Shown piece by piece: positions 631 to 54,454 of a stretch of DNA of 64,000 bases. Origin of the DNA: Sphagnum magellanicum. Lineage: Eukaryota > Streptophyta > Sphagnopsida > Sphagnales > Sphagnaceae. The notes under the pieces were generated by a model. The model searched no databases. It was not told the DNA's origin and worked only from the letters and a program-made list of their open reading frames with translations. The stretch lies in assembly GCA_021904315.1 (NCBI GenBank), contig CM038915.1:5642001-5706000 (forward strand), in the 5' to 3' direction. Positions within the stretch are counted from its first letter, which is position 1, and the number at the start of each line of letters is the position of its first letter. A program made the translations under genes and the position numbers.

Positions 631-3600
631 TCACTTGTCAGTGATTCCAGCAAGCTTGCTATTAGCTCGAAGCACATACAGCTTGTCATAGGTGTCAGCT
701 TGCACATTACTGAAGGTCACCAGGGCTTGAAACATATATGGAAGACCAGTTTGTAAGCTGTTGAGGGTGTAGGCCCGAGTGTCACTGTGTGCCTTCCTCT
801 CTGCTTCCTGCTCTTCTTCAAGTTTCCTTTTAGAAGCCTCCATGCGCAGTCTGCGCTCTAAAACATCCGGTCGCTCAGTTGCCCCCTCTCTGACAATCAT
901 GCTAAGATTGTTTTCATCACTTTCACTTGAGGAGGATGCAGGAGACCGAGGAGGGTGAGGGGGTAGAGGCAGAGAGGGTGGCTCTCTCATAGAGGCACTG
1001 AAAAGAGAGGTTTCTCGCTTTACCAGCTCCCTTGCAAAACTTTCAACCCGTTTCTTGATTTTGAGCTCCTCCCACTGAAGCCTCAACATTTCACGAACTA
1101 CTGCTGCAAATCCAGCTATTGCTTTCAAAACAACATGATCAGGTAACTGATCCATTGAAGCCTGCCATTGTTGGCACAGAGCATAGATTGGGCTAGCATT
1201 TAATGGGGAGGCACTGGAGTGGGATGGGGAGCATGATCCTGTTGTATCCATGTCCTCAGGAAACTGCAGGAGACTTATTCGCAACCATCCTGTCATATTC
1301 CTCATGTAGTCTCTCTGAGTGCTCACCACTTTCTGCAGCATCATAGACCACCTAGAAGACACCTGAAGATCAGTATATGCACATGCAAGCATGCCCTAAT
1401 AACTTTGTAACTTCAATGTTTGGGAACATTGAAGCCAATGGTAGAGGACAGAGAATTTGGGACCAAGTTAACAAAGAAAGTCAATCCCCTCCCATGGTCC
1501 AAACAAGATTAGGATGTTTATGCTATAAACACCTGAGGAACTGGGTAAAAAGAAAGACCGCACATACTTGTTCAGAGCAGCTTCTAATTGAACTGTAGAG
1601 TGCCGGTGAAAGGTTGTTGTTGGCTCAGAGGCAGCTGAGTTACCAAGCCTCTTAAGGGTTTCAACAGCTTTCATCTGGGCTTGGTGAGAAACAGACATAT
1701 CCTTCCACATAACCATCATTCTGTATAACCAAAACTCCACAATTTAGGTCACCAGTCAGAAAGCGAAATCCCATATTTATGAAATAGCATTTTTGAAAGT
1801 GAACAGGACAGGGAGGAGTTTCATTACCCTTCAAGCAAATCCAACAGCTGTGGATAGAGATCATCATCTCTCAATTTCTGAATTTCAATTGCAGCACCAT
1901 CTACAGCTTGGATAGAAACCAACATCTGTGTTTGTAGCATCTTAATGTTGGCCCGCATTTTGTCAATGACCACTTGATCTTCCCCATTAGTGTCCTGATT
2001 TCTGTACAGAGCATACTTTTTCTCCAGCTCTTTTCTTAGATCTTCTGCTCCCTGTTTCTCAAAATACCAAATTCAGAAAGCGCAAGAGTTAGGTCGAATC
2101 TCCAGCACTGATTCTGCTTTCAAAAGTCTGCACTTTCCTAATTCCAGGAAATGAATCCCTTTCACCACTGGCTTTTCATGCAGATACTTCATAAAATACA
2201 CAAGAAATATGGGAACAAAGGAAGAAACTATATTGGAGACAGATTCATTTCTTGATAGAAAATACCTGAACAAAAGAATAGAAATATCTGCAAGATAGAA
2301 AACAACATACGCCCCCAGAACAATGCAAGACGGTAGTCATCTGAGAACAAACCTTAACTTCCAGGTATAGCTTTTTCTCCCAAGCATACAGTCTGTCAAG
2401 AGTTGATGCATGACTGCCAGTCATGCCACACCCCTCCACCCAGGCAGTGCTGCGGAAACTACTGAGGCTTCGCATGCTACTGCCTATGCTAGCAGTCTCT
2501 TCACTCATAATGCTGGCATTGCTAGGAGCCCTGTGATGAACAGGAGATCCAGATTTTGTGGACAGCTTCCAGAATGAAATCCTTGCTGATTCTCCAACTT
2601 CTATTCATTCCAGCAGAAATTATGCATTATGACTTCAAAATCAAAGCTGATAGAAAACAACTAGGGGTAGATTAAAAAATTGTGAAAAGCTGAAGAGAAA
2701 TATAAGACTGAGAACAAGATAACTCGCAAAGAATTGCAAGCCAACACCACTACAGCTTCATGTCCATATTCTCACCTCTTAAGTTCTCTGAAAAGCTGGA
2801 GTGATAATGAACTTTCCTGGTCTCAAGTATGTTGGAAACTGTTTCAGCACTATCAGCAGCCTTCAAGAACAAGTCATCAACCTCCTTGATCACATCAAGC
2901 AGGTCTCGACCTCCCTGCTCTGGAATTATGATAGCCAGCTCCCTGTTCACTTTCACTGTACCTTTGAATAGATTCTTCTCAACTGTCTCCTTTGGTGACC
3001 TTGGGTCTGGCTCAACCTTTGTAATAGCTGTTGCATTTTCCTCTTTCTCATCATAATCAGAATCCTGGCACACCCAAGGCCCAGTCTACTTGGCTCCCAT
3101 CACAAAAGTTTTGCATGCCAAAAAGGGAACTCCAGCATGCTTTGGCAATTGGTACATCAGCAAAGATGGGACCGAACAAACTATGGTTCACAAATTCAAA
3201 CAAGAGAGACAATTCTGATGTCTCATGCTTGCAGGAAAAGTCTCCAAGAACTCACAACTGCATCACCAATAGCAAATGCCCAAGGAAAAAAAAATAGATG
3301 ACACCAGATACCAAAAACACAGAAGATAAACTACCTTTGAAGCAGGTCCATCAGTATCTACATCTTCAAGGTCTGGTATGTCATCCTCTTCTTCAACCTG
3401 AGGTAGCTTGTTGTCATAGGTCTCAGCAGGCTGAGAGTCCTCTGAGTTTTGGTTTGATAGCATATAGCCCTGATCAGAATGTGGGCCTGGGCGAAAAGGG
3501 TCCATAAATAGGTCATGCCAACTGCTGTAAGATATTGGTGGACGGGGCAGATACTGCCCTTGTCTTGATGGAGGAGCTTGAACTGAAGAATTCCACTCAT

Positions 3601-4078
3601 CATCATAACCAATTGGAGTGATGAGAGGTGGAGGAGGAGGGGATGAAGGCTCTTCATTGCCTGCTTCCCTGACCAATTCTGGAGATTTGAACAAAGTTGT
3701 GTTCCTAGGTCCATGGAGTTCAAGATGTGGAGGTGAAAGGGGAGGAGGAAGTGGTGGTGGTGAAGGAGGGAGGGAGGGAGAGAGAAGACTAGGAGACATA
3801 GGGGGAGGTGGTGGAGGCTCAGGAAGAGGAGATGGAGCAAGAGCAACAAGAGCAGTTGATGGACCATCTGAAGGTATCACTGCAGCTGCTGGATCCTTCA
3901 CCTCCCCCTCTGCAAATTGCCTAAGAGCAGAGCCCACACTTTTGAGAGCTATGACATAATGAGCATGTGAAGCAGCAAAAGCATGTCGAGAATCTACTGC
4001 CTGCCTCATGAAGCGCTTCCTTGCCTTGCATCTTGCCACTGCATCATCCCTGTCAATCTTGGAATTTGTGCACCCCAT
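631..4078 (-). CDS. DUF630/DUF632 domain protein (NRG2/APSR1/REL2-like), six exons, 789 aa
   Basis: Exons inferred from splice sites and phase: 4078-3335, 3064-2776, 2585-2353, 2057-1828, 1720-1568, 1351-631; together 2370 bases, an exact codon multiple. Residues 1-60 form DUF630, starting MGCTNSKIDRDDAVARCKAR. Gly2 and Cys3 are the usual N-myristoylation/palmitoylation site, so membrane anchoring is expected. Residues about 65-165 are Pro-rich, then an acidic stretch (EEEDDIPDLEDVDTDG). DUF632 runs over exons 2-6, with LDRLYAWEKKLYLEVK, LRDDDLYPQLLDLLEG, MMVMWKDMS and QRDYMRNMTGWL as landmarks, and ends in a charged coiled coil (RRLRMEASKRKLEEEQEAE). Relatives in Arabidopsis and rice act in nitrate signalling, phosphate response/root growth and leaf shape; which role applies here is unknown. 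The family is plant-specific and the length is typical. The exon 4 start (2057 or six bases inside) is the least certain junction. Confidence 0.94.
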
Positions 4079-5990
4079 GTTGTGAATCTAACATGGGAAG
4101 GCCAATCCTTGAAAATTGCCAGGAAAGGATTGGACCAATGTGAAAATGCAATATCTCTTCACTCTGCTTAAGCACGCTGTAGAAATGCAAAAATTCTTCA
4201 GCTACATCCTCAATGTCATGGTCTTGAGCATGTCAGAAACCGAGTTCTAGCTGTTTCTCAGCTCCCTTTGTTTTGGAACCTGAAATCTTGCATTGCAAAA
4301 ACCTCTGCACATACAACACTCACAAAGAAATGATGTTTGGTTCTTGCAGGGAGAAGGGCATTAACTCACAAACATAGTTCACAATGGTGCCTACAAGGCA
4401 TGTGAACACAATAAACAGCCAAATTTTGTGCTGGTTCAGATGGGGTTGCTGATATGCACCCAATCGCTTCAACTGTGACACCAGAGAGAAAGCAAACAAG
4501 GATCTCCACATGGAGGGTTGAACAAGTTCTGCTGGATTACCTTGCAGTAAAAGCCCTGTAAAATTAGGGTTTTGAGCCTTCATTCACATGTCTGAATAGG
4601 TATGTGTGCAAGCAATCACCATATCTCCTGTCTACCATTTTTTGTCAGGCACATGGACTTCCAGCTCAAGGCTTCATCTCCATGTGTAGCAAGCATCATA
4701 GTGTATACCCATATAAAATTCTCTTATTATAAGTAGAATTCAAACACTGATTTCCAGAAGCCAAAGAGGCACACCTTAAATTGTTTAGATCGGTATGTTC
4801 CTTGTCTCCACGTCGAAGTTGGCACTACCATTGAAGCTCAATCGCAGTCTGGACATACCTAAGAAATGCGATAGGTGCATGGAACTTTCTTAAGAAGCCT
4901 TCGTCACCAGGGTTTGAATGAACCGAAAAAAGCGTTAGAGAGCATGCACGTTGTGTTGGTCCCCGCAAAACAATCGAGCTTCCCACAACATACGCATACA
5001 TACATACATACATATAACATGCATGTATAGACGAAGTTTCGTCCACCCACCAAAACAGGCCCTTGAAATCATGGAACAAAGCCCCGCAAGTCTTTCAAAC
5101 CTGCTATAAAGAAGTGTGCTTTCAGCAGCACATTAGACCACAAAAAAGACTGCCGAAACTCCAAAGGCGACAAGGCAAAATGTAGCATATTCAACATACT
5201 AGTGTAATGAAAAGAGAATAATATAAAACACGTCAACAAACACGCAAAGTCCAGAACATGAGCGTGAAAAACCTCTGAACACTAGGTATCATCCTTCAAT
5301 AGACTATTGCAATTCAATCAGAACGAAACGCCAGCCAAGAAACGACCAAACAAGCGGGGCCGGAAGTGTCAGAATCCAAAACATGAAGAAAACGAGACAT
5401 TAGAACCTCCGACAGAGTAAAATAAAAATCTTCAAAACAGATATCAGTGAGTGAGCAACGTGATTTCAAACTCCCAAAAGAATGCACCGACTACCGAAAG
5501 AACATCCCCCCCCCCCCCCCCCCCCCCAAAATACAAACACTCAACTGGAACAACACATTTTAAGCAAGACGCTTACAAAAAGGGCTGAACCTGGCATAGA
5601 TAGTGCAGAGACAAACAGGAAGGTCACTGACAAGAAAGACTCTCTCACCTCACAAGGAGTTTCTCCCTCTGTGTGTGTGTGTGTGTGATCCCTGCAGTTC
5701 CTCTTGCATGAGTTTGTCAAACTTCTCCCTCGCTCGCTCCTCTGTTTTGCTTGTCGAAGGCCCGAACCCAGCGGCAGCTGCAGCACCGCGGCAAACACGG
5801 TGCCCTGCACTGCAGAAATTCGAAAAACGCGGCACAGAAGAGAAGCTGCTCGACTGTTCGTCGACTGTTCCGGGTATAACGATACCAAAGTATATAGACG
5901 GTGAAATCCGGGTATAATAATCCCCCACCCACCCCCCCCCATTCCTGTACGCTGGAAAGCAGGCCACTCTGCGGGTATGAAACGTTACCC
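4079..5990 (-). promoter_or_regulatory. Leader and promoter region of the DUF632 gene
   Basis: No coding gene is supported. Relative to the minus-strand gene this is upstream sequence. 5690-5870 is more GC-rich and CpG-containing than its surroundings and is a reasonable place for the transcription start, which would imply a long leader or a leader intron down to 4079. Simple repeats lie within it: a run of C at 5506-5527, a (GT)n tract near 5671-5688, a CATA tract near 4993-5013 and a C-rich stretch at 5923-5940. The phrase ccgggtataa occurs twice, near 5868 and 5908. The exact start site cannot be seen. Confidence 0.4.
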
Positions 5991-30719: not shown

Positions 30720-33700
30720 ATGGCGGAGCTTAAGGTCGTACTGACGATGCCGCTGGTGCAGCTGCTGTACAGCGTCTATAACCTCTTGGTCCGGGCTTCT
30801 CTTGTCACTGGCATCAATCCCGTAGTGTTCGCAGTCTACCGAGACTTGCTCGCCTTGCTCATGCTTTGGCCCTTGGCCTTCTTCCTCGAAAGGTGGCTGC
30901 GCTCTTCCCCCTCCCACTCTTTTCTCATGCCCGAAGCTTGCTGGAATTTTGTAGAGGGTTGGTAGTTGGTACCCAATATTCGTGGTCCTTAAACTCAGCG
31001 AATATTTTGATATTTTGTACTCACTAAGAGCATCTCCACCAGCACTCAGAATGTGACCTTGCACTGGAAATCTTCGATGAGGTACAGCCCAGTGGAGTCA
31101 CTGGAAGACTGCTGTGACCCTGAAAAAATGCGCAGCTTTCAGAGCCCTGGAACAATTTAATAAACACAGTGAAATCGTATTTATTGACTACTCCCTGTTT
31201 CTGATTGGCTAGATAATTTGATTGGTCCAGGTGGGTTGCTATTAGTAGTCTGCCACCCATTTGCAGTCCCATTTTCAGGCTTATGGGTGGGGTTGGAAAA
31301 AGTGAGTAAGTAAAACTTGGATGTGAGAAATATTTTCTCATGGTCATATACTGAGCCCTGCTGGAGATGCTCTAAGCTGTGTTTGCAATATTTGATATTT
31401 TATTTCTGTGGTTCTGTCTGGTTGCTGTTTCCAATGGCTGAGATGGAGATTTTCATTCATTGAGTTTTGATTCCAATTCTATGTACAGGAGACTATGGAC
31501 TCGAATTTCTCCCACAGTACTCATCATGTTACTCTTCTCTGGGATTACTGGGTAAGATTAAGCCCCACTTCCATCTCCAGAAATTCAGTTTCAGACATTT
31601 GCTGGTGACCAGGAGTCACTCTCCCATGTGGTGAGGATCATGATATCATGCAGCTCTTTCTGGATCTTGAAAGCCAGCATTTGTAGGATTGAGTGACCCT
31701 TCATTGATGAAAAGATAGTAGTTTCCAGAGTTGTGTTGTAGCACAATGAGGGGATGGATACATGACAGTGCTAACATTATAGATTGTGTGTATCATCTTG
31801 AGAACTCTGTCTTGAGTGCATAACAGCAGCTCTACCCATACTTGCATTTGACCCTGCAACTGAATTTCTCACATTCAAGATTACTTATTCACTGCTTCCC
31901 AAGCCCCACCCATAACAAATGAAACTGGGACTGCAAAAGATCAGAACCTACTAATAGCAAACCACCTGGACCAATCAATAAAGCTGCCAAATCAAGAGCA
32001 GGTGTTAGACTGTGCAGTGGCTTTTGTGAGCCCCAGCATATTGAGCAAAAACGCTGAGCCAAAGCCATTTTACTAAGCATGTTGGGCAAGTTTTTACTGA
32101 TCTTCATCCAAAACATGTATGCTGGTGGTGATGCTCTAGCAAAGCTCACAAACACTGTGGTTTGTATTGTGCAGGGTTTATGCATTTCAGGTTCTCGCCC
32201 TGCTGGGGTTAGCTTACACATCTGCCCCCTTGATTGCAGGCATACAAAATATGACACCTGTATTCACTTTCATTATTGGGGTTGTGTTCAGGTACACTCA
32301 CTCCAACAGCTTGTCCTTCCTTAAACCTTCATGCTGTCCCAAAGAACTCAGAGCAGATTCAGATGTATTTGTGAGGAGTTTGGAATGTCTTGAACAGCCT
32401 TGCAGTGTAAGAACGTTGCTGAAGATAGCCTTCAAGGCCATCTGGCTAAGACACATTCTCGTCTGACAGATCTGCTTGACATGATGATATCAAGCTTGAA
32501 GAGAGCTACTTCAGGCACATTCGTGTCACAATCCTCCTTTTTTTGCAGATGACTAGAATTTTTTTCCAACATCCCCACTGATAGAGGACAGTTGTAGCAA
32601 AAATCTTTGTAGAAGAGATTGATGCATTTCTGAGTTACACTTTCAAGTTCTATGCATGGCAGACACCAGAGTTGAGGGTTGGTTTCTGCATGAGTAGTGA
32701 TGATCTGAAACTTAATGCCAGACAGAGTGAATTTGATGTTTTGCTGCTGTTGAAATGCATGTGCATGAAGCGCAATCTATCCCCTATCTCTGCACATATC
32801 TATTTGACATAGTATTGAATTGACTGTTTTATAGGATTGAAACTATCCGATATTCTCGACCTAGTGGACAGGCTCAGATTTTAGGGTTTCTGGCATGTGT
32901 TGGGGGAGCGGTAACCATGTCTCTTTATAAGGGGCCGGTTATTTTCCCCAACCTGCTAACCTCTACCAGGGCATCTGGAAGTACAAATTTCCAAGATCAA
33001 GGGCTCGATATAGTAATTTCTGAAGGGCTCAAGAAATTTATTGTGGAGTGGAAGATAGACTCTTGGAAGTTTGGGTCATTTTGTGGGATTGCATCTTCTT
33101 TTTTAATCAGCATATATATCAACTTACAGGTATGTGCCCTTGTCCTTGTTTGCTACCTAGGCACTGTTCAATGATGAGGGCCTGTTCACACATGCCTAAT
33201 GCACATGTTGAATGCATTTGGAACCTGACATGCACAGCAGTGTGCTCAGTACTGCTGGGTTTAGCAAATGTAATTTTGGGCACTTTAAAATGTCCATTGG
33301 CTCTCCCCAGAACAAAATAAGTTAATGTTTGCCTAATTTATTATTATTGTACTCCCAGGCCATTTTCTTTCTTGGAACTGTTGAATTCCAGCCATGTGTA
33401 AGATTGGAATCAAGAGCAATCCCCAGATTTAAAAAGAAGAGGATCAAGTGTTCTAATGCAAAAGGGCTGTGTGGACCACACTCTGGCAGAACTTAACTTT
33501 GCTGTTGCAGCAATTGTCAGTGTTCAAGGTCTTCTGCAAACCAGGCAGGAGCTCAATGATGTTCAATGAAACCCTGAGGGTTTAGGTCCTATCTATATCT
33601 CTAGTTATAGAAGACATGTTTCCCAATTTTGATTGTATAGTTGTTTCAAGAAAGAAGAGCCCAGGACATTGCAGATTATGCTACATGGTGTCACTTGAAG

Positions 33701-37427: not shown

Positions 37428-37685
37428 CCTGATTCTCTCGGCCTCATTCCTCTTGGGCATCCATGTCTGTCCTTGCTAGCCTGGTGTGGACTGGGCGGGC
37501 GCCTGATTCTATCTGCCTCCTCCTCCTGGGCATCCAGTTGGGCAATCCAGTGACAAGTGTGCACTGTGGATTAAGTGGCTGCCTGATTCTCTCCTCATCC
37601 TCCTAGGCATCCAGTGGTAGGTGTGGACCAAGTGACCGCCCGATTCTCTCCGCCTCATCCTCAGGGCATCCGGTGACAGCTGCTC
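37428..37685. repeat. Four-copy GC-rich tandem repeat downstream of the secreted-peptide gene
   Basis: Units carry gattctctc.gcctcatcct then 'gggcatccagtgacag' then 'gtgtggac...gtg.ccgcc'. The word gattct occurs at 37431, 37505, 37585 and 37642, spacing 74, 80 and 57 bases. The last unit ends about 60 bases past the minus-strand stop at 37746, so the array probably lies in or just beyond that gene's 3' UTR. GC content is far above the window average. Confidence 0.8.
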
Positions 37686-37745: not shown

Positions 37746-38540
37746 TTAATTTCCTTTGACGGTCACAGGCACGCTGTTGTGGCCCCTCGATGGGGTTCCG
37801 GACCCTGGAGCTGTCGTTCCTTTAGCAAGGATGTTGAAGGTGGTGGCGAAGTTTGAATTACCCGCAATTGAATTACTAGAAAACCTGGACTTATGCCTTG
37901 TGGAAGACTGTGATCCTGATCCCCCTGCAGAAGCGGATGATTGTCCACCACCCTTTGAAAGAGATTTGGATCCCACATGAGATGCAGCACCTTTCAAGAT
38001 TCCCCCCCCCGGGACAGTACTGATGTTTGTGGAAGCCGGTGCTGAATTCAGGTGGCCATTTGAAGAAGCAGGTGTTGTTCCTGACCCATGAACAGTGTGG
38101 ATTTTTTCTCCATTAAGCGAGCCCGTGCTTGAAGGAACGGAATTGTTCCCTTTCGCAGCAGCCCGGGTGCCCCGTAGGACTGATCCTAGAGGTGTGCCTG
38201 ACGACGTTGCCGTAAGACGTTCTGATTCTGAGATTGCCGGTGAGGCTAGACTGGCTGCAAGAACATTACTGCCAGCGTTGTTCCCGTGCTGTTCGACGAT
38301 GATCCTCGCGTCTTTGCCATGATCCTCGCCGGAGTTCGACCCTGCAGCGCCATGATCACGCGGGTCCAGCCCGAGAATGAAACGTTGCTGCTCTGTAATT
38401 ACTGCCGGCCACACACGTCCACAATCAACACTCAAAGGGCAGACTAGGATCATGAGGAGTAGATTCACTAACACGAACAACAACACTCTCCCGGGACTCA
38501 TCACACGGGCAGTATCCATACTCCCTCGCTCCGTCCCCAA
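37746..38540 (-). CDS. Secreted peptide precursor with C-terminal IDA-like motif, 264 aa
   Basis: One uninterrupted exon. Residues about 14-40 form a signal peptide: basic start, hydrophobic VLLFVLVNLLLMILVCPL, likely cleavage near Cys40. The body (60-230) is Ser/Gly/Asn-rich low complexity without cysteine pairs or domains, typical of a small-peptide precursor though longer than the usual 70-120 aa. The tail, residues 235-264, reads FNILAKG...PGSGTPSRGHNSVP and lines up with the extended IDA motif of Arabidopsis (F-G-Y-L-P-K-G-V-P-I-P-P-S-A-P-S-K-R-H-N-S) at F, L, KG, P, S, PS, HNS. IDA peptides bind HAESA-type receptor kinases and drive cell separation. A weaker second copy (GSGTTPASSNGHLNSAP, 152-168) and a fragment (KGNNSVP, 130-136) lie inside. 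The PIP family motif (SGPSxxGxGH) is the nearest alternative. The start at 38540 is the first ATG; a later Met (residue 8 or 14) would also keep the signal peptide. The ORF is firm, the hormone call is inference. Confidence 0.65.
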   Translation of the reverse strand: MGTERGSMDTARVMSPGRVLLFVLVNLLLMILVCPLSVDCGRVWPAVITEQQRFILGLDPRDHGAAGSNSGEDHGKDARIIVEQHGNNAGSNVLAASLASPAISESERLTATSSGTPLGSVLRGTRAAAKGNNSVPSSTGSLNGEKIHTVHGSGTTPASSNGHLNSAPASTNISTVPGGGILKGAASHVGSKSLSKGGGQSSASAGGSGSQSSTRHKSRFSSNSIAGNSNFATTFNILAKGTTAPGSGTPSRGHNSVPVTVKGN

Positions 38541-38700: not shown

Positions 38701-39448
38701 ACTCCTGGAAGATTAGAACCAATGATCTACTTGTAAGACTTCAAAATTGAACCCTCTTTATTGATCACCACCACTGTAATTGTCTCTATAAATTATTGAT
38801 CACTTGAGAAGATTTGTGAACACTGCATGATATCCTTGAAGATAAAATTCTCTACTATCATCATGATCTGGCCAGCGTCTCTGATCATGTACCACTGGAG
38901 ATATAAAATTGTGACAAAAACCAACATGATATGCAACAGTCTATTAGAATCTGTCTTGGAGTCCGCGAGGAGCTAGCAAACTGAATTTGGGATTCTGTTG
39001 AGAGCTATCTATCTCTGTGTGTGTGTGCAGGCAGGAGGGAAAAGTAAGAAGAAGCTGTGTTGGACGGACTCCGCTGTGTTGTGCAGCTTGTTAAGGAGCA
39101 ATGGCTTCTTCTTTAAAGGGCACAAAACAAAAACAAAAGGAAAGGAAAAGGGGTCGGACCGCCTATCGAGCAAGGGCGAGCGGGGGTGCCGTGGAAAGAC
39201 CACGGAAACCGCGGCTCCCACACCAACCGAGCTTGTGTGTCATCGCACACGAAAAAGACTTTCCTCCTTGAAAAAGGAAAAAGAAGACTTCGATGCGCGA
39301 GTGTAGTTCTTGTTGTTGACTGACGCGCGTAGTGCGCTCGCTAGGTATTCCGTTTGTTTGGACTTTGGACCGTCCCCCCCCCCCCCGGCTCCACCCCCAT
39401 GTCTTGAAGCGCTTTTCATTTTTCATACCCACTGTTGTTGTACCATAA
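38701..39448. other. CpG-containing upstream region, no supported gene
   Basis: 39050-39400 is GC- and CpG-rich relative to the window. A 102-aa plus-strand frame (38998-39306) is Lys/Arg-rich without a recognised domain and is more likely a by-product of base composition. It is probably regulatory DNA or the leader of an unseen divergent transcript. A C run lies at about 39375-39387. Confidence 0.35.
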
Positions 39449-39808
39449 TTGCATCCCATCGGTGCTCAGTATGTGACACTGCATAAATATTCATCACATC
39501 CGAGTTTAGTTATTTATTTCCAACTTAAGCCATAAAACTAAAACTCGCTCTGCAAATAGGTGCGAGACTACTCCTAGCAAACCACTTGGACCAATCATTA
39601 TGATTGGCCAATGAGAAACAGGGAGTAGCAGTCACATCATATCTACGACACTCGTTGCCAACAGTGTTAGGCTCTGCTGTGCGTTTTATCAGACTCGGCA
39701 AGCTTTGCGTAAATGCAGGGCCAAAACCATTTTGCTGAACCAAAGGGGCATTCTTTGACTTTTATTCATCTGTGCAAGGTCACTTACCGAGCACTGCTGG
39801 GAATGTTC
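39449..39808 (+). mobile_element. Tourist-like MITE, family 'GAGCATCTCC', copy C (360 bp)
   Basis: Flanked by TAA at 39446-39448 and 39809-39811. The termini are diverged (ttgcatcccatcggtgctca; reverse complement of right end gaacattcccagcagtgctc). The interior matches copies A and B through 'gcaaaccacttggaccaatca', 'caatgagaaacagggagta' and 'gccaaaaccattttgct'. Confidence 0.8.
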
Positions 39809-53604: not shown

Positions 53605-53815
53605 TAAGCTTAACATTTGTCAAGCTAAGGGATTATATATTAATTGAGCACAAGGGCTGACAATTCAATCTTGCCAAAACTTCTATTAAAACTTATAGTC
53701 CCTTTACAACAAACACAACTATGCTACAAACCATATTTGGAATTCTAATGAAATAGGCATTCAAGTAGGAAAATAATCAAGAGCAAGGGTTCTTGTAAAA
53801 CAAGGTTCACACCAA

Positions 53816-54454
53816 GTGTACAATATTATCCCGAAATCCAGTGAGTGGTTGATTGTTAACTATGTGGTCAATGTAGTAGGAACAACACTACCAGGGTTCT
53901 ACATATTCAGAGGAGAAAGGATATGTGACAACTACATACAATTCTACAAACTAGGAACCTATATGGCTATGCAATCAAAGGCATGGATGACTACCTTCCT
54001 TTTCAAAGAGTTTCTATATTTTTTCAAAAGGTCTATATCAAGTGGAATATCCTTAACAAATAGGCATTTGCTCATTTTGGATGGGCATGGATCCCATGTC
54101 ACCCTTGAGACAATTAAACAAGATAAAAAATTTGGGTTGGATATGATTACTTTACCTTCACATACATCTCATGCATTTCAACCCATGGATGTGGCTTGCT
54201 TCAAGCCTTTCAAGAATGATTTCAGAAAGGAAACAGACGCAACAATGGTTAAGAGGAATTACACAAAACCAAATAAGATAACATTGACAGGGTGGGTGGA
54301 CAAAGCACTAGACCTAACACTTACAAGGAACAATATCATGTCAAGGTTCAAAAATACAAGAATTTGGCCACTTAACCCTAGAGCCATGGATTCAAAAACT
54401 TACCTTAGTACTTTGTACATATTGCAAGCTAGGGAAGAAGAAGAATCAAAATAA
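53816..54454 (+). pseudogene. DDE_1 nuclease domain of pogo-like transposase (212-aa open frame)
   Basis: The open frame carries LLILDGHGSHVTLE (second catalytic Asp) and LPSHTSHAFQPMDVACFKPF (third Asp), then TGWVDKALDLTLTRNNIMSR and RIWPLNPRAM, all in the order of plant pogo-type transposases. Homology extends upstream of the first Met: the block IWNSNEIGIQVGK at about 53726-53765 corresponds to the family's 'WNSDETG', with Asn in place of the first catalytic Asp, followed by a stop. The protein is therefore inactive on two counts. The remaining open length suggests modest age. Confidence 0.88.

Follow-up and report, generated by a model that had tools for sequence, protein, structure and literature searches.

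The genome of a peat moss contains a gene that appears to encode a secreted precursor releasing a peptide of the IDA type, in a divergent bryophyte variant; we give this reading a probability of roughly 0.7. The gene lies on the minus strand of a 64,000-nucleotide stretch of DNA (the window, C9:5642001-5706000), and the genome searched comprises 438,994,042 bases in 31 contigs. The gene has an open frame and a duplicate on contig C7, its conservation is focused on the signal and the tail of the protein, and the tail fits the IDA motif.

Organization of the gene

An earlier note on this DNA had proposed a precursor at 37746-38540, with a secretion signal and an IDA-like C-terminus, and translation bears out both the frame, which is open on the minus strand, and its end. 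The coordinates and the long precursor hold for the two copies (257 aa in C9 and 236 aa in C7, each counted from ATG). The proposed length of 264 aa does not, since it had been counted from a TTG; the first ATG of the frame, at 38519, gives the 257 aa. The gene is laid out as follows.

37746-38519, minus strand: IDA-like precursor, one uninterrupted coding frame from ATG to stop, 257 aa
38421-38519, minus strand: putative signal peptide, residues 1-33 (cut site guessed), followed by GRVWP with its Arg; from hydropathy and the DNA match to C7
37839-38405, minus strand: variable Ser/Gly/Ala-rich linker, residues 39-227, with no recognisable conservation between C9 and C7 in a shuffle test
37749-37838, minus strand: conserved C-terminal block FNILAKGTTAPGSGTPSRGHNSVPVTVKGN, from the C9-C7 comparison and the IDA alignment
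37776-37820, minus strand: proposed mature peptide GTTAPGSGTPSRGHN, 15 aa, predicted from IDA processing, with K-G and H-N kept in C7

The limits of the proposed peptide assume that the precursor is cut after LAK, by comparison with LPK/G in IDA, and that Asn is the last residue.

The secretion signal takes the form of a hydrophobic N-terminal segment, whose best 15-residue Kyte-Doolittle mean in C9 is 3.27, against at most 1.16 past residue 45; the signal-peptide call is one of hydropathy, not of SignalP. Both copies have this hydrophobic N-terminus, which is also conserved at the DNA level, and in both it is followed by an Arg (CGRVWP in C9, CGRVIWP in C7). Past residue 36, the C9 protein has neither Cys nor Tyr, and its linker contains 39 S, 33 G, 24 A and 18 T. 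As read in genomic DNA, which leaves room for a 5' UTR intron, a single open frame runs from signal to tail in both copies. Pfam assigned the C9 protein to no family even at E 10, and gave the C7 protein one weak match (E 0.76) under the cut-off of the family. We do not claim an internal repeat of the motif, because shuffles reach the score of the best self-alignment in both copies (83/5000 for C9 and 842/5000 for C7).

A duplicated partner on C7

The other gene of the pair, at C7 18055776-18056450, was the sole further gene in the whole-genome search, and the two proteins are 37% identical. Genome searches for more copies based on the tail returned the same two places only. The fourth match of the whole-genome search (C2, E 0.22) is part of a seemingly unrelated frame of 683 aa and was rejected.

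The C7 gene is probably the whole-genome-duplication partner of the C9 gene, because a neighbouring DUF630 frame (Pfam; window 3263-4087) also has a copy on C7, in the same order and orientation as on C9. The distance between the gene and this neighbour is about 34 kb on C9 and about 340 kb on C7. The DUF630 neighbour has 10 matches in the genome, the closest on C12 (75%) and the next on C7 (68%). At window 631-4087, on the minus strand, DUF632 and DUF630 frames probably form one gene, which served as the synteny anchor.

Between C9 and C7, dS is 0.50 in the tail and 0.69 in the N-terminus (Nei-Gojobori style, from few sites). For Sphagnum divinum, PMC9946827 describes two rounds of genome duplication, with Ks peaks at 0.406 and 0.643, and places chromosomes 6, 7, 9 and 12 in one ancestral group, to which C7 and C9 belong on the presumption that contig numbers equal chromosome numbers. 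Set beside these peaks, our dS values indicate that the pair most likely arose by an ancient duplication, and a dS near 0.5 makes a recent duplicate unlikely.

On C12, the 100 kb around the DUF630 relative contained no tail (best tail match of 7 residues, E 4.8), and the whole-genome search at E 10 found no copy on that contig. The best full-length match there (39% over 46 aa, E 0.046), a weak one in the N-terminal part of the protein, is at most a decayed remnant, because it lies on the opposite strand and is broken by three stops.

Conservation between the two copies

When the window was compared by blastn (threshold E 1e-5) with the 78 kb round the C7 gene, a stretch with a 2-kb gap inside it, the only matches within the gene were 38404-38479, in the signal peptide, and 37763-37865, in the tail; further matches were found elsewhere in the window, some of them in dispersed repeats. 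The tails align with a score of 111, which none of 20,000 shuffles reached, and the middle parts (residues 43-220) with a score of 56, matched by 458 of 2000. Synonymous changes are close to saturation in the linker. In the tail dN is lower than dS, with a dN of 0.19 from LAKG onward, and the residues common to both copies are LAKGT..PGSGTPS.GHNS.PV..KG. The earlier note had asked about the tail as a conserved block, and the DNA and shuffle tests make it the main one besides the N-terminus, as seen against the one available relative, the C7 copy.

Conservation extends to two non-coding blocks upstream, collinear in both copies and about 0.65-0.8 kb before either ATG.

39313-39330, minus strand: upstream non-coding block, 18/18 identical to C7, about 811 bp before the ATG (787 bp in C7)
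39211-39230, minus strand: second collinear upstream block, 20/21 identical to C7

The best score of the upstream comparison was 50, whereas 60 shuffles reached 31 at most. The 18-base block carries TTGACT on the plus strand, which we take to be a possible W-box. A downstream match between C9 and C7 (score 33, against 29 in shuffles) was too weak to claim, a long gapped upstream alignment without a control was set aside, and a bacterial promoter scan was discarded as not meaningful for plant DNA.

Similarity of the tail to IDA

The C9 tail, F-N-I-L-A-K-G...P-G-S-G-T-P-S-R-G-H-N, aligns with soybean IDA1a (FNFLPKGVPIPPSGPSKRHN; as given in Table 1 of PMC5972575) with one gap, in agreement with the IDA-like motif that the earlier note had read there. 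Its score is the highest among 10,598 frames from the window and 18 loci; 7 frames score at least as high as the C7 tail. The following lines give, for each reference, the fraction of shuffles reaching the score of either tail.

Soybean IDA1a: C9 score 55, 0/20,000; C7 score 35, 264/20,000
Arabidopsis IDA: C9 score 42, 2/20,000; C7 1102/20,000
IDA core, 12 residues without the L.KG entry: C9 171/10,000; C7 1517/10,000
IDL1 core: C9 62/10,000; C7 318/10,000
MiIDL1: C9 score 38, 63/20,000; C7 2258/20,000
PEP1: C9 211/20,000; C7 9044/20,000
CEP: C9 1878/20,000; C7 3448/20,000
CLV3: C9 2545/20,000; C7 4931/20,000
CLE: C9 9828/20,000; C7 797/20,000
PIP1 (provisional reference sequence): C9 1144/10,000; C7 2256/10,000
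RGF1 (provisional reference sequence): C9 2432/10,000; C7 874/10,000
TDIF: C9 8960/10,000; C7 6675/10,000

Judged by these alignments, IDA is the best-fitting family for the C9 tail among those compared. The C7 tail by itself looks weakly IDA-like and would not convince alone. The fit of the core is much weaker when taken by itself, and the L.KG entry therefore supplies much of the signal. When the whole genome was searched with the Arabidopsis IDA tail, there were no matches and even the C9/C7 pair was missed, so that this empty answer carries no weight.

C9 has the entry FNILAKG with its K/G site, and C7 has L.KG alone, with the F absent there. Both copies keep the K/G bond and the counterparts of IDA Hyp64, Ser65, His68 and Asn69. 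Gly replaces Arg67 in both, Pro takes the place of Lys66 in C7, and the core is one residue longer. After GHN, 9 residues follow in C9 and 11 in C7.

According to a 2015 survey (PMC4526919), IDL proteins are defined by a signal peptide, an Arg after it, an intronless gene, a length below 110 aa, and the elements S(G,A,V)PS and (R/K)(R/K)HN. The moss proteins have an N-terminal signal peptide by hydropathy, the following Arg and an extended entry that contains K/G. Their lengths of 257 and 236 aa exceed the limit, the core reads SGTPS in both copies, with one residue too many, and the end reads RGHN in C9 and PGHN in C7. Because length, S(G,A,V)PS and (R/K)(R/K)HN depart from the definition, we do not file the pair as a canonical member, although as far as its sequence tells it would work like IDL.

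The moss proteins resemble IDA/IDL (Arabidopsis IDA, soybean IDA1a) in their hydrophobic N-terminus with an Arg just after it, single frame and variable linker, and in a C-terminal F..L.KG...P.SG.PS..HN with a brief extension after it that opens with Ser. They differ in the residue inserted into the core (SGTPS), in R/P-G-H-N for (R/K)(R/K)HN, in a block-initial F found in C9 only, and in length, 236-257 aa compared with the 77-103 aa that the 2015 survey gives for Arabidopsis IDA/IDL (PMC4526919). MiIDL1, from a root-knot nematode, also departs from RHN (SGPSRRGN) and is nevertheless reported to act as an IDA mimic; it is unlike the moss proteins in being short and of animal origin, and the C7 tail is not significant against it.

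Comparison with other peptide families

The drift toward the PIP motif suggested by the earlier note did not survive comparison. The moss tails share SG and PS elements and a GH near the end with PIP/PIPL, whereas the match to PIP1, in its provisional reference sequence, is not significant in either copy. PIPs have SGPS and a terminal GxGH with no extension after the core (the latter from PMC4526919); the moss tails read SGTPS and GHN, and continue for the 9 or 11 residues already noted. With CEP they share a PG....GH skeleton, and differ in lacking F-R-P-T and SPG(I/V)GH: C9 reads TPSRGHN and C7 TPSPGHN, with Asn after GH. The CLE dodecapeptide is R-x-V-P-S/T-G-P-x-P-x-H-H/N. Its SG-P...HN skeleton is present in the moss tails and clearer in C7; the R-x-V-P start is absent, and C9 has just SG.P...HN of the motif, which is not significant.

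Codon patterns were also run over the whole genome; they cover the codon sets as written, and cores split by introns would escape them. A narrow pattern for the canonical IDL core with Lys/Arg, whose codon set excludes Val from the core and CGN from the first of the Lys/Arg positions, matched 0 places. A wider one matched 14 places, against 3 for its control; S(G/A)PS-x-RHN occurs at none of the 14, and the nearest readings are SGPSFSHN, SGPTYRHN and CGPSCRHN. SAPSGSHN on C1, the one of the 14 whose surroundings were read, sits in a 46-aa frame and was dropped. The CEP core pattern PGxSPGxGH matched 0 places. G-T-P-S-x-G-H-N matched 3 places and its control pattern 2; of the 3, two are the C9/C7 pair and the third reads GTPCEGHN. 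Near-identical matches that read CGPS(C/Y)RHN occur at C3:18161937, C4:12254061, C5:22017491, C5:22295591 and C19:15710622; these five places may belong to a dispersed repeat with a chance IDA-like word.

Candidate receptors

HAESA-like ectodomain frames, which the earlier note had proposed to look for, are present in the genome. The search with the HAESA ectodomain gave at least 41 matches at E 1e-30, with 73 of the 1240 candidates scored. According to PMC4848090, Arabidopsis HAESA buries Hyp64 of IDA against Glu266, and Arg407 and Arg409 contact the carboxyl group of Asn69. Of the best four of the at least 41 matches, three retain the residues corresponding to Glu266, Arg407 and Arg409. The fourth, on C16, has Asp at the place of Glu266 and lacks both Arg. 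Candidate ectodomains lie at C7:2004938, C3:23347987 and C13:3996712. The best candidate, on C7, matches HAESA collinearly; in a search of the PDB, GSO1, FLS2 and one MIK2 chain outrank HAESA for this candidate by whole-sequence score.

The same paper reports that HAESA does not bind an IDA peptide extended past Asn, that Lys66 and Arg67 contribute to binding, and that changing both to Ala lowers it about tenfold (PMC4848090). The extra residue in the moss core would make the peptide bulge within the groove, unless the receptor differs in shape.

Proposed mode of action

We propose that the precursor would be secreted by means of its N-terminal segment, and that a subtilase would then cut behind LAK, as behind LPK in IDA, for which cleavage between the Lys and the Gly of LPKG has been proposed (PMC5972575). 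Once trimmed to the Asn of GHN, the product would be a peptide some 15 residues long, GTTAPGSGTPSRGHN from C9 and GTIGPGSGTPSPGHN from C7, whose central Pro is probably hydroxylated. Its receptor may be an LRR receptor kinase of the HAESA type, assisted by a SERK co-receptor, and the signal would pass locally between cells, possibly in cell separation or wall remodelling, where the process is a guess.

Alternative explanations

A peptide hormone of a separate moss lineage (CLE-, CEP-, PIP- or PEP-like, or a family of its own) could have converged on an IDA-like tail; the product would still be a secreted ligand, but not a descendant of IDA. The departure from the strict IDL core agrees with this, as do the GH in both cores, shared with CEP and PIP, the alignment of the C7 core SGTPSPGHN with CLE SGPNPLHN (score 26, reached by 434/10,000 shuffles and, as listed above, 797/20,000) and the PEP1 value for C9. 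We nevertheless consider it unlikely: C9 is not significant against CLE, CEP, CLV3 or the provisional PIP1, PEP1 loses its match in C7, and an L-x-K-G before the core is absent from the other motifs compared (MiIDL1, which we counted as IDA-like, has I-K-G). PROPEPs are not known to carry a signal peptide, which counts against a PEP-like identity. RGF, PSY and CIF require a sulphated Tyr, and the lack of Tyr past residue 36 of the C9 protein argues against that type.

The abundance of S, G, A and T in the linker and the empty Pfam result would also suit a secreted wall protein of the arabinogalactan- or hydroxyproline-rich kind, with a C-terminus that serves anchoring or assembly instead of signalling. 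This is very improbable, given that conservation is recognisable in the short hydrophilic tail and not in the linker, that hydropathy reveals no GPI-type hydrophobic segment at the C-terminus, and that the tail bears an ordered, hormone-like motif. That the frame is open by chance is scarcely credible: its sequence is of low complexity and it was picked out of a 64-kb window, but it has a copy on C7 with a tail similarity that no shuffle reached, dN below dS in the tail, and conserved blocks upstream.

Significance for the history of IDA-type signalling

Our preferred reading, a divergent bryophyte precursor of an IDA-type peptide, bears on a question of distribution. In what is very probably a non-seed plant, the pair may be an early or intermediate member of the IDA/PIP group, as the earlier note suggested, or a side branch particular to mosses. 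The 2015 survey reports IDA/IDL and PIP genes as absent from Physcomitrella and Selaginella (PMC4526919); a 2026 survey assigns IDA/IDL to three broad lineages and places PIP in none of the non-vascular ones (PMC13091385). A 2023 paper on Marchantia counts IDA, in a passing remark that refers to work from 2015-2018, among the peptide families conserved in embryophytes, and for the families it refers to Furumizu et al. 2021 (PMC9901580). A text search of the literature, with most subscription papers outside its scope, found no description of the Sphagnum C9/C7 pair, and we do not claim priority for it.

IDA controls organ shedding in seed plants, and the host moss sheds no flowers. With a duplicated pair, a defined peptide and candidate receptors in one genome, it becomes possible to test how old IDA-type signalling is and what role it first had, and the pair illustrates how far the core may drift, from RHN to GHN, with the tail still conserved. 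A more far-reaching proposal, which we hold only tentatively, is that the pair represents a bryophyte branch of the IDA/PIP/CEP group of ligands, with long precursors, undivided receptors of the HAESA clade, and an ancestral mixture of an IDA-type L.KG entry, an IDA/CLE ...HN end and the GH of CEP/PIP. Since such a branch would exist in a plant without abscission of floral organs, IDA-type signalling would then predate both seed plants and organ shedding.

Other elements in the window

Related elements in inverted orientation lie at window 31188-31376 and 39451-39770, the latter upstream of the gene, with arms 77% complementary over 112 nt; they belong to a dispersed repeat, several relatives of which occur in the stretches compared on C12 and C7. 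Just 3' of the gene, at 37483-37662, there are three diverged direct repeats of 43 nt. At 53777-54454, on the plus strand, an open frame of 225 aa resembles a DDE_1 transposase.
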